A stretch of DNA of 64,000 nt from Cetobacterium sp. 8H (GTDB lineage Bacteria > Fusobacteriota > Fusobacteriia > Fusobacteriales > Fusobacteriaceae), in the NCBI RefSeq assembly GCF_014250675.1, contig NZ_JACHTG010000004.1:807501-871500 (forward strand), in the 5' to 3' direction. How positions within the stretch are numbered: position 1 is the first letter of the stretch; every line of letters starts with the position of its first letter. Positions 35,140-39,463 of this stretch are shown here, in pieces. The notes beneath the pieces are model-generated. The model was not told the DNA's origin and made no database searches. It saw only the letters and a list, made by a program, of their open reading frames with translations. A program made the position numbers and the translations under genes.

Positions 35140-36348
35140 ATGAAATGTACTTTAGTATTAGTGGGAACAGAGTTATTAAATGGAGCTACAATAGATACAA
35201 ATAGTATATATATGGCTGAAGAATTAAATAAATACGGGATTAAAATAGCATATAAATTAACTATTGGAGATTCATTGGAAGAGATTATAGAAGCATTGAA
35301 ATTTGCAAAAAAAAATAGTGATTTAACAATAGTTTCTGGTGGATTAGGACCTACTGATGATGATTTAACAAAAATGGCAATAAGTAAATTTTTAAATAAA
35401 AAACTTATCGTTGAAAAAGATGAACTTTTAGAGTTGAAAGAAAAGTTTAAAAATTTAAATATAAAGTTTTTAGATAAAAATCATAAAGAGGTTGAAAAAC
35501 CTGAAGGAGCACTATCTATAAAAAATGATGTAGGGATGGCACCAGCCTTTTATATAGATGACGTAGTGGCTTTTCCAGGTGTACCAAGAGAACTATTTAA
35601 TATGTTTCCCAAATTCTTAGAATTTTATTCAAAAGAAAAGAATAGAAAAGTAGATCCAATATATATAAAAGATTTAATCGTTGTTGGAATACCAGAATCA
35701 CATTTAGAAGAAAAAATAAAAAAGTATTTTACAAGTCCAGATATAGAATATGAGTTTTTAGTAAAAGATTATGGTATAATAGTTAGAATGCAAACTACAC
35801 AAGTGTATAAAAACACAGTAGAAAAAATTAAAGAAAAGATATATAATAGTATAGGCAAGCACATATTCGGAGAAGATAAAGAAACATTAGAAAACAAAAT
35901 TGTCAATTTATTAAAAAGTAAAAAATATTCAATTTCAATTGCGGAATCATGTACAGGAGGGCAATTAACATCCAAGTTTATAGATGTTCCTGGAGTTTCT
36001 GAAGTTTTTAAAGAGGGAATTATTTCATACAGTAATGTTTCTAAGGTGCAAAGGTTAAATATAGATAAAAATATAATAGATACATATGGGGCTGTAAGCA
36101 AAGAGGTAGCGAAGAAGATGGTATTAGGTTTAGATACAGATATAGCTATCTCTACAACTGGCATAGCTGGACCAACAGGGGGGACAGAGGAAAAACCAGT
36201 GGGACTTGTTTATGTGGGGATTAAAGTTAAAGAAAAGGTATCAACTTTTAAATTTAATTTTAAAGGAGATAGAAGTCGAATAAGACAAAAAACAGTTCTC
36301 CATAGTCTATTTGAACTTTATAAAATGTTAGAGGAGGATGAACAGTAG
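35140..36348 (+). CDS. cinA: CinA family protein (nicotinamide-nucleotide amidase)
   Basis: 402 residues in two parts. The N-terminal MoCF/CinA domain (about 1-170) has GTELLNG and SGGLGPTDDD; in this family it is linked to ADP-ribose or NAD-derivative pyrophosphatase activity. The C-terminal CinA/PncC amidase domain (about 250-400) has SIAESCTGG and TTGIAGPTGGTEEKPVG and deamidates nicotinamide mononucleotide. Its stop overlaps the next start by one base. No recA or competence genes are adjacent. Confidence 0.93.
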   Translation: MKCTLVLVGTELLNGATIDTNSIYMAEELNKYGIKIAYKLTIGDSLEEIIEALKFAKKNSDLTIVSGGLGPTDDDLTKMAISKFLNKKLIVEKDELLELKEKFKNLNIKFLDKNHKEVEKPEGALSIKNDVGMAPAFYIDDVVAFPGVPRELFNMFPKFLEFYSKEKNRKVDPIYIKDLIVVGIPESHLEEKIKKYFTSPDIEYEFLVKDYGIIVRMQTTQVYKNTVEKIKEKIYNSIGKHIFGEDKETLENKIVNLLKSKKYSISIAESCTGGQLTSKFIDVPGVSEVFKEGIISYSNVSKVQRLNIDKNIIDTYGAVSKEVAKKMVLGLDTDIAISTTGIAGPTGGTEEKPVGLVYVGIKVKEKVSTFKFNFKGDRSRIRQKTVLHSLFELYKMLEEDEQ

Positions 36349-36896
36349 TGAGTATAGGAGAAAGAATAAAGAAGAGCAGAAATGAAAAATCATTATCATT
36401 AAGAGAATTAGCAACGATGGTTGATTTATCAGCGAGCTTTTTATCACAAATTGAACAGGGAAAAGCATCTCCTTCAATAGAAAATTTAAAAAAGATTGCC
36501 AATTCACTAGATGTAAGAGTTAGCTATTTGATTGAGGATGAGGAAGTTAAAAAAAATTCAGATTTAATAAGAGCAAAAGAAAGAAAGTTTGTAGAAAGTG
36601 TGGATTCAAATACAACTATTTCCTTATTAACGTCTTCAAATATAGAAAAAAGTATGGAACCAATTTTATATGAAATAGGTCCAGGTGGAGAAAGTGGAAG
36701 AAGTTATTACACTCATTCAGGAGAGGAATTTATTTTCATTCTGGAGGGAAGTTTAGATATATATTTAGAAGAAACAGTTCACTCATTGCATGAAGGGGAT
36801 AGTTTCTACTTTAAATCTAGTCAAAAACATAGATTTAAAAATAATTCAGATAGAAGAGCAAAAGCTCTTTGGGTGGTAAATCCACCAACATTTTAA
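36348..36896 (+). CDS. XRE-family regulator with cupin domain
   Basis: 182 residues. An XRE helix-turn-helix (about 5-60; LRELATMVDLSASFLSQIEQ) is joined to a C-terminal cupin (about 105-180; SGEEFIFILEGSLDIYL and GDSFYFKSSQKHRFKN). Regulators of this PuuR/MSMEG-like class sense small ligands. GTG start overlapping the cinA stop, with GAGGAGG. It sits directly before the FakA-FakB fusion, which makes lipid precursor control a reasonable guess, but nothing in the sequence proves the target. Confidence 0.9.
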   Translation: MSIGERIKKSRNEKSLSLRELATMVDLSASFLSQIEQGKASPSIENLKKIANSLDVRVSYLIEDEEVKKNSDLIRAKERKFVESVDSNTTISLLTSSNIEKSMEPILYEIGPGGESGRSYYTHSGEEFIFILEGSLDIYLEETVHSLHEGDSFYFKSSQKHRFKNNSDRRAKALWVVNPPTF

Positions 36897-36911
36897 AGAT
36901 GGAGGAAAATA

Positions 36912-39428
36912 ATGAATATAGAAGTAAGAGTATTGAACTCTACAAGGCTAACAAAACTATTAATTGCGGCTAGTAGATGGTTATCAAAATATTCAGATGT
37001 TTTAAATGATTTAAATGTTTATCCTGTTCCAGATGGAGATACAGGAACAAATATGTCAATGACACTACAAGCGGTTGAAAATGATTTAATAAAATTAAAT
37101 CACGAACCTGATATGGAAGAATTAGCAGAAATAGTTTCTGAAGCTATATTATTAGGAGCAAGAGGAAACTCTGGAACAATTCTTTCTCAAATAATCCAAG
37201 GGTTTTTAGAGGGTGTTAGAGCAAAAGAAGAGGTTACTGTAGATGATGTTAAGATAGCCTTTAGATTAGCTAAAGAAAAGGCATATAAAGCAGTTAGTGA
37301 GCCTGTAGAAGGAACAATGTTAACTGTTATAAGAAGAGTAGCAGAAGAAGCTGAGAAATATACAGGACCTTCAGATAACTTTATTCCATTTTTAGTTTAC
37401 TTAAAAGAAGCGGCATATGATGCTGTACAAGAAACACCAAATCAATTACCAAAGTTAAAAGAAGCTGGTGTAGTAGATGCTGGTGGACAAGGAATATTCT
37501 ATATTTTAGAAGGATTTGAAAAATCAGTAACAGATCCAGAGATGTTAAATGATTTAGAAAGAATAGTTCAATCTCAAGCGAAAAGAAAAGACTTAATGGA
37601 ACATTCAACTATGCATGTATTTGAGGATATTAAATTTAAATACTGTACTGAGTTTGTAATAGAATCTGGAGATTTTGATTTAGATGATTATAAATCAAAA
37701 ATTGTAAATCTAGGAGATTCAATGGTTTGTGCTCAAACTTCTAAAAAAACAAAAACACATATCCATACAAATAATCCAGGATTAGTATTAGATATTGCTG
37801 GAAAATTGGGTAATCTTTCAAATATAAAGATTGATAATATGGAGATTCAGCATAAAAATATGTTATTAGCAGATGCAGAACATCATAAACCTAATAAAAC
37901 AGGAAAAATATTAGTTCAGAATGAAAATAGCAAACCAGTAGCATATTTTGCAATAGTTGATAATTCAGAGCTTGGAAATCTATTCCTAGATAATGGAGCA
38001 ACAGCAGTTCTTATAGGAGGACAGACACAAAATCCAAGTGTTGCAGATATAGAAGAGGGAATAAACAAGATAAAAGCGGATAAGATAGTTATTCTACCAA
38101 ATAATAAAAACATCATTTCATCAGCAAAACTTGCTGCTGAAAGATCATCTAAAGAGATAATAGTTTTAGAAACAAAAACAATGCTTGAAGGTGAATATGT
38201 TGTAAAAAATAAAGATTTTGGTATAGATGATATATTGAAGCAATTACCTTTTAACAATTCAATAGAAATAACACAAGCAGTAAGGGATACAAAAGTGGAT
38301 GAGATAGTTATTACACAAGGAGATTATATAGCTTTAATAGATGGAAAAATAAAGTTGAGAGCATCAACTTTAGAAGAGACTATTGAAAAAGTTTATAAAA
38401 TGTGTGTAAATAGCGAAACATTGAATATATTTGCATGTATTGGTAAAGGGTCAACAGAGGAAGCTAATAAAGTTTTAAAAGATATAAAATCAACAGTTAA
38501 GTTCTGTGATATGGTTATAGGTCAAGATAACTATCCATATTATATCTATATAACAAATAGAAATCCAGAGTTACCAGAGATAGCAATAGTTACAGATTCA
38601 ACATCAGATTTAACTACAGATATGATAAAAGGATTAGATGTAGATATAATACCTTTAAAGATTAAACTTGAAGGAGATACATATTACAGAGAAGGTGTAG
38701 ATATATCAAAAGGTGAATTCTGGAGACAATTATTAAAAGATGGAGTTATACCAAAAACATCACAACCATCTCCAGCTGAATTCAAAGAATTGTATGAAAA
38801 ACTACTTGAAAAGGGATATAAAAAAATAATATCAATTCATATTTCAAGTAAATTAAGTGGAACTCAACAAGCTGCAAGAGTAGCGAGAGGAATGTTAAAT
38901 AAAGAGGATGATATAGCTATAGTTGACTCAAAAGCAGTAACATTTGCATTGGGTCATATAGTAATAGAAGCTGCAAAAATGGTTCAGAATGGTAGCTCGT
39001 TTGATGATATTATTGAATGGATTGATGAAACTAAAAATAAGATGAAAGTATACTTCGTTGTAAAAGAGTTATCATATCTAGAAAAAGGTGGAAGAATAGG
39101 TAGAGCTTCTTCTGTAATAGGTGGATTCTTAAAAATAAAACCAGTTTTAAAATTAGAAAATGGTGAAGTTTGTATTGAAGCTAAAGCTTTAGGAGAAAGA
39201 GGAGCTTTATCTTATATGGAGAAAATAATAAAGAATGAAAAGAATTCAATAATCATGTATACTGCTTGGGGTGGAACTCGTAGTGAATTAGAGGCTGCCG
39301 ATCAACTGAGAAGTATCGCTGAAAAAACAAAGAAATTAGATTATAGAGGAAGATTTGAGATAGGAGCAACAATTGCATCTCACACTGGACCTGTATATGG
39401 AATGGGAATATTAAATAAAATAAGATAG
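36912..39428 (+). CDS. fatty acid kinase FakA fused to DegV-type FakB
   Basis: 838 residues that join two proteins normally separate. Residues about 1-205 are a DhaL/DAK2 kinase domain with the magnesium loop PVPDGDTGTNM (38-48). The middle domain carries KYCTEF and HIHTNNPG, matching the zinc ligands of FakA. A FakA C-terminal domain runs to about 550, and residues about 555-838 are a complete DegV domain (IVTDSTSDL, SKLSGTQQAA, YLEKGGRIG). In Staphylococcus FakB presents a fatty acid to FakA for phosphorylation before phospholipid synthesis. A fusion would tether carrier and kinase. RBS GGAGG 15 nt after the regulator gene. Confidence 0.9.
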   Translation: MNIEVRVLNSTRLTKLLIAASRWLSKYSDVLNDLNVYPVPDGDTGTNMSMTLQAVENDLIKLNHEPDMEELAEIVSEAILLGARGNSGTILSQIIQGFLEGVRAKEEVTVDDVKIAFRLAKEKAYKAVSEPVEGTMLTVIRRVAEEAEKYTGPSDNFIPFLVYLKEAAYDAVQETPNQLPKLKEAGVVDAGGQGIFYILEGFEKSVTDPEMLNDLERIVQSQAKRKDLMEHSTMHVFEDIKFKYCTEFVIESGDFDLDDYKSKIVNLGDSMVCAQTSKKTKTHIHTNNPGLVLDIAGKLGNLSNIKIDNMEIQHKNMLLADAEHHKPNKTGKILVQNENSKPVAYFAIVDNSELGNLFLDNGATAVLIGGQTQNPSVADIEEGINKIKADKIVILPNNKNIISSAKLAAERSSKEIIVLETKTMLEGEYVVKNKDFGIDDILKQLPFNNSIEITQAVRDTKVDEIVITQGDYIALIDGKIKLRASTLEETIEKVYKMCVNSETLNIFACIGKGSTEEANKVLKDIKSTVKFCDMVIGQDNYPYYIYITNRNPELPEIAIVTDSTSDLTTDMIKGLDVDIIPLKIKLEGDTYYREGVDISKGEFWRQLLKDGVIPKTSQPSPAEFKELYEKLLEKGYKKIISIHISSKLSGTQQAARVARGMLNKEDDIAIVDSKAVTFALGHIVIEAAKMVQNGSSFDDIIEWIDETKNKMKVYFVVKELSYLEKGGRIGRASSVIGGFLKIKPVLKLENGEVCIEAKALGERGALSYMEKIIKNEKNSIIMYTAWGGTRSELEAADQLRSIAEKTKKLDYRGRFEIGATIASHTGPVYGMGILNKIR

Positions 39429-39431
39429 ATA

Positions 39432-39463
39432 AAAAATAGCTAGATTAAAATCTAGCTATTTTT
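39432..39463 (+). terminator. terminator after the FakA-FakB gene
   Basis: Perfect 13-bp stem AAAAATAGCTAGA with TCTAGCTATTTTT, 6-nt loop; the T run is in the 3' arm. Confidence 0.88.

Follow-up and report, generated by a model that had tools for sequence, protein, structure and literature searches.

A predicted single-chain fatty acid kinase joined to its only carrier across the phylum Fusobacteriota

We analysed a 64,000-nucleotide stretch of DNA from Cetobacterium sp. 8H (the window) and found that one of its genes encodes an 838-aa protein which, judged by its domains and residues, is a fatty acid kinase covalently joined to its only carrier. The kinase FakA and the fatty acid carrier FakB are separate proteins in the organisms where they have been studied, a contrast already drawn in the first-pass annotation of this DNA and upheld here, as the fused protein is not a two-component enzyme but one chain. 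The fusion is a phylum-wide trait of Fusobacteriota. A literature search, partial in its coverage, returned no description of a FakA-FakB fusion; domain databases probably list the four-domain architecture already.

Four Fak domains in a single reading frame

The gene (positions 36,912–39,428, + strand) starts with ATG behind a GGAGG Shine-Dalgarno sequence (36,901–36,905, +) and runs without interruption as a single frame. Pfam searches placed four domains on its product, all exceeding their cut-offs and in the order DAK2, FakA-like_M, FakA-like_C, DegV. These are the DAK2 (FakA_N) kinase domain at aa 38–203 (37,023–37,520, +; 9.6e-42), the FakA middle domain at aa 241–316 (37,632–37,859, +; 2e-24), the FakA C-domain, FakA_C, at aa 346–547 (37,947–38,552, +; 6.4e-49), and the DegV/FakB carrier domain at aa 557–833 (38,580–39,410, +; 1.9e-88), with a junction at aa 548–556 (TNRNPELPE; 38,553–38,579, +) between the last two. 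This search bears out the original proposal that kinase and carrier are fused in one chain. The protein also exceeded the cut-offs of TIGR03599 YloV (458.8 bits; cut-off 396.1) and TIGR00762 DegV, and scored 331.6 bits against the NCBIfam FakA_VfrB equivalog, below a cut-off of 975 bits that suggests a narrow model.

The same four-domain frame stands without internal stops in ~85 other genomes (43–97% identity), which excludes an assembly artefact. A Fusobacterium sp. locus (L192) is among them; its protein and that of another genome of the window's family (G033) are identical. Just 3' of the gene, a stem-loop with a T tail (39,432–39,463, symmetrical and assigned to neither strand) ends the unit as a probable terminator, although chance alone would give roughly one match of this kind in a region this large.

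Conserved catalytic and ligand residues

In S. aureus the key FakA positions are Asn32, Asp38, Asp40, Thr41, Asn82, Asp185, Cys240, His282 and His284, and the key FakB position is Arg173 (PMC9136124, PMC11617999). All have equivalents in the fused protein: N35, D41, D43, T44, N86 and D189 in the kinase part, the Cys-His-His set C245, H283 and H285 in the middle domain, and R728 in the carrier, where the ligand positions S645 and H824 are present as well. The weak point that the annotation had foreseen, a residue missing from the kinase domain or the DegV pocket, was looked for, and every checked residue was in place. The checked catalytic and pocket residues are likewise kept in 45/45 four-domain fusions.

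The fused protein matched S. suis FakA from 7w7h, a complex of FakA with FakB2 (2.5e-87), as well as many FakB structures. In the AlphaFold model the kinase, middle and carrier parts are confident, FakA_C is poor (pLDDT about 30–80), and the linker between FakA_C and DegV is of low confidence; with a pTM of 0.47, the domain arrangement is not readable from the model. The modelled kinase part matched S. aureus FakA_N structures with TM scores of 0.92–0.94 and the carrier part matched S. aureus FakB1 with 0.86, in both cases normalised by target.

The tether begins at the docking site

FakA_C is the FakB dock in S. aureus, where the terminal Glu548 of FakA pairs with FakB Arg205 (PMC9136124). 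Free FakAs of a first sample had this glutamate at the terminus or at most 3 residues from the end (16/16). In the fusions the YYIYIE motif continues through ~7 residues (e.g. NRDPNLP), after which the first FakB strand follows; the junction thus sits at the terminal Glu motif of FakA, and the tether starts at the dock itself. Glutamate occupies the Glu548 position in at least 29 of the 45 four-domain fusions and threonine in 12, from the window's genus and a neighbour; T548 holds that place in the window protein.

The position of Arg205 is basic in all 25 free FakBs, in none of the 45 Fusobacteriota four-domain fusions and in 5 of 44 other fusions, a comparison in which the independent fusion events on the tree are few (one pair, the starred branches) and fall below the reach of statistical testing. 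Arg173 is retained in all of the free FakBs and fusions so compared. Fusobacteriota fusions carry Leu, Phe or Ile in place of Arg205 (L760 here), Arg209 is basic in 0/45 (G764 here), position 207 is acidic in 42/45, and the mean net charge of a 15-residue segment drops from +3.3 in free FakBs to +0.4 in four-domain fusions, with other fusions at +2.6. In S. aureus R205 is required for FakA docking (PMC9136124), and R205, R209 and W180 for membrane binding (PMC10146087). The loss of Arg205 can be read in two ways: the docking charge is no longer required, or, since Arg205 also serves membrane binding in S. aureus, its loss may reflect altered uptake of fatty acid from the membrane rather than relaxed docking.

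One carrier per genome throughout the phylum

The window's own genome (2.57 Mb, 99% complete) holds a single DegV, the fused one; the count of separate degV genes suggested beforehand gave 0 besides it, and the two other DAK2 genes are both short DhaL-like frames. The fused gene was found in 93 of 98 phylum genomes, with one DegV each over the cut-off: about 86 have intact four-domain chains, four lack FakA_C and three are broken by contig ends. The earlier suggestion that the fusion favours one carrier is inapplicable to a genome without a second DegV, in a phylum where a single DegV is near-universal, and the accompanying question about the docking of free FakBs falls away because the sole DegV of the genome is the fused domain. 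With this one carrier only, the genome has a fixed 1:1 ratio and no carrier choice.

Fusions without FakA_C

Outside the phylum, 46 of 291 sampled genomes had matches, and among the inspected matches none was a four-domain chain. Eleven chains of 586–630 aa consisted of kinase, middle and carrier domains with no FakA_C, and a contig scan gave 37 such C-less fusion loci, at least one of them shared with the set of 11. The loci come from Caldithrix, Neomarinimicrobiota, Aminicenantes, Cloacimonadota, Bacteroidales, Gammaproteobacteria, Gemmatimonadota, Zixibacteria, Latescibacterota, Spirochaetes, WOR-3, Halanaerobium, Vagococcus and others. All 11 chains checked keep C240, H282, H284 and the Asn/Asp residues. 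Among 24 C-less-fusion genomes counted, 17 have no DegV other than the fused one (or, in G163, the adjacent one); the rest are five named Bacillota with four or five DegV and two Lysobacteraceae with two.

Some loci depart from this pattern. In G163 (L087:1219-3007) kinase-middle (315 aa) and DegV (283 aa) are overlapping separate genes with no FakA_C, and the DegV has Lys at the Arg205 position. The frames of a Pseudoxanthomonas and a Lysobacterales MAG (L148:1934-4270, L149:1805-4270) are 779–822 aa long, with ~180–220 additional residues N-terminal to the kinase, where the start may be misplaced.

Within Fusobacteriota, the C-less fusions of genus g12 (L064:2945-4825, L065:3107-4984, L066:3045-4946) have lost N82 (T), C240 (N), H282 (Q) and the FakB His, with frames intact in three species. 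Their dN/dS of ~0.09, from the one pair with measurable dS, points to purifying selection, although dN/dS figures are rough here because dS is near or beyond saturation; these proteins are perhaps repurposed. An independent loss of FakA_C occurred in G047 (genus g11, L067:3345-5246), whose congeners G048 and G049 retain the domain; its C240 is Ser and the remaining catalytic residues are kept. Given these substitutions in g12 and G047, we dropped the Fusobacteriota C-less forms as proof that FakA_C is dispensable.

Origin of the four-domain fusion

In the carrier-domain tree Fusobacteriota form one clade (support 100) within the free FakBs, apart from the main C-less group, and in the kinase-part tree they group with Bacillota FakA (96), away from most C-less fusions. 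From these positions, a single origin of the four-domain fusion by joining fakA to a fakB is most likely. Adjacent fakA and fakB, in the same order as in the fusion, are found in six Bacillota loci, which provide a route to it. Within the window's family, FakA_C was lost twice at a later stage. In a DhaL-rooted kinase tree long branches meet, and a single clade of C-less fusions was not rejected (p = 0.957).

Relative to the kinase domain, FakA_C evolves at a rate of 2.5 in fusions versus 1.5 in free FakA at short distances, and of 1.6 versus 1.4 at middle distance. A profile of Bacillota FakA_C is related to DegV across its whole length (E = 5.5e-6), in agreement with the published structural resemblance of FakA_C to FakB/DegV (PMC9136124). 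The same profile comparison with Fusobacteriota C-domains gave no match to DegV; in one C-less fusion the DegV exceeds the FakA-like_C cut-off.

PlsX is missing from one family that keeps the fusion

PlsY was found in 96 of the 98 phylum genomes, and the window's own genome has both PlsY and a plsX-fabH-fabD cluster. PlsX occurs in families f2, f3 and f6 and is almost universal in the window's family (f1). In family f4, which we take to be Leptotrichiaceae-like, PlsX was found in 0 of 33 genomes (G064–G096), with PlsY universal and the fused kinase in 32. The fused kinase is thus the only recognised acyl-phosphate source in f4, where phospholipid synthesis seems unable to bypass it. PF02504 matches in some f4 genomes could pass for PlsX; the one scanned, from G084, is GrdD, a glycine reductase subunit (NF040747), as are two matches from other genera.

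FabH is present in most f4 genomes; none over the cut-off was found in three small-genome f4 genera and G064. In E. faecalis, fatty acid from FASII reaches Fak via a thioesterase (PMC12288450). We set this route aside for the PlsX-less genomes, as no convincing acyl-ACP thioesterase (PF01643) match was found in f4. Among individual genomes, G065 (L209) has fabH and fabD close together and no plsX with them, and G064 (L210) is the only one with PlsY in which neither PlsX nor Fak was found. The 0.8-Mb genome G001 (f5) has none of these genes.

A proposed mechanism and its alternatives

We consider it very probable, on the evidence of residues and gene content, that the protein works as a single-chain fatty acid kinase whose tethered FakB serves the DAK2 domain and which passes acyl-phosphate to PlsY/PlsX. 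The C-terminal DegV/FakB domain would hold the fatty acid so that the carboxylate stays exposed, the DAK2 domain at the N-terminus would phosphorylate it with ATP, and the Cys-His-His site of the middle domain would complete the catalytic centre. The acyl-phosphate would then go to PlsY, and to PlsX where present. Docking affinity would come from the covalent link at the FakA C-terminus, after which the charged Glu548–Arg205 contact could have relaxed, with Glu548 becoming Thr in the window's genus. We infer kinase activity, docking within the chain or a dimer, and flow to PlsY. A fuller version is offered tentatively, as a possibility we somewhat doubt: a FakB unable to leave lost the Arg205/Arg209 wedge that serves FakA docking as well as membrane entry and became part of an in-place kinase, the f4 fusion replaced PlsX, the phosphate is added on FakB, and FakA_C is a dispensable, FakB-related dock.

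Two published Fak models disagree on the role of FakA_C in the active site, and no active Fak complex has been solved (PMC11617999). If the FakA_C pocket takes part in catalysis, as in the S. suis complex model, the fused FakB would be a mere feeder. Such a pocket is described for S. suis Fak (PMC11617999), and about 86 of the Fusobacteriota fusions retain FakA_C. We nevertheless regard this as improbable: S. aureus FakA without FakA_C is active, with a tenfold higher Km for FakB (PMC9136124), at short distances the fusions have a faster-evolving FakA_C, and C-less fusions of many phyla have their checked kinase and middle residues intact and mostly no other DegV. These residue-intact fusions of other phyla favour phosphorylation on FakB over an obligatory FakA_C pocket.

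Alternatively, the fusion could have ceased to work as a kinase, its Fak parts now making up a sensor or regulator. S. aureus FakA does affect gene regulation, and the g12 forms, stripped of N82, C240, H282 and the FakB His, are nonetheless under purifying selection; yet no checked catalytic residue is missing from the window protein or from any of the 45 four-domain fusions, and the fused Fak is retained where PlsX is absent, which makes this very unlikely. Least probable of all is that the linker is cleaved, so that one frame yields two proteins and nothing functional is fused. The linker is of low model confidence and Bacillota often have fakA and fakB as separate neighbours, but the linker is short and hardly varies in length across 45 fusions, and both this and the loss of the docking Arg205 fit a lasting link better.

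Comparison with known systems

Domain order, catalytic residues and kinase clade are those of FakA (VfrB/YloV) of S. aureus and other Bacillota, whereas here the chain continues into FakB and the terminal Glu548 is Thr in the window's genus. The carrier part resembles free FakB/DegV in its whole DegV domain, its Ser, Arg173 and His and its S. aureus FakB1 fold, and differs in being tethered, in the loss of Arg205 and Arg209 and, across the four-domain fusions, in a mostly acidic position 207. Free FakBs number two to four per genome, against one here. The C-less fusions (~600 aa; Calditrichota, Neomarinimicrobiota, Bacteroidales, Gammaproteobacteria and others) share the single chain and a mostly lost Arg205, but have no FakA_C, form separate branches in both trees and keep a net positive cap (+2.6). 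Single-chain DAK fusion kinases exist, and dihydroxyacetone kinase (DhaK-DhaL, DAK fusion kinases) resembles the present protein in its DAK2 kinase domain and partner-held substrate; it acts on another substrate and lacks the FakA middle domain.

Fak has been reviewed as a Gram-positive strategy (PMC10146087); in contrast, we find it phylum-wide in Fusobacteriota, and Bacteroidales and Gammaproteobacteria are among the other groups that have it. Single-chain enzymes, of which some have FakA_C and some lack it, do away with the binding step and offer fixed 1:1 complexes for assays and crystals, and relatives with the shorter, C-less version help to test how the Fak family works.

The genes upstream

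Two neighbours on the + strand precede the kinase gene: a cinA-like gene (35,140–36,348; ORF, Pfam) and, outside the enzyme itself, a gene for a 182-aa XRE-cupin regulator (36,348–36,896; HTH_3 and Cupin_2, Pfam), whose best NCBIfam match, PuuR, is well below cut-off. The regulator gene had been described as overlapping the kinase gene; its GTG start shares 1 nt with the cinA stop, and 15 nt separate its end from fak. None of the four C-less fak loci of the window's family has it, nor do the eight f4 loci that were read. Nothing seen supports a lipid-like ligand for this regulator, which the annotation had suggested could sense a related ligand. A regulatory link to fak is plausible, since 36 of 41 loci in the window's family (0 of 8 in f4) have the cupin gene beside fak or close to it, mostly 14–63 nt upstream and in some loci ~550 nt.
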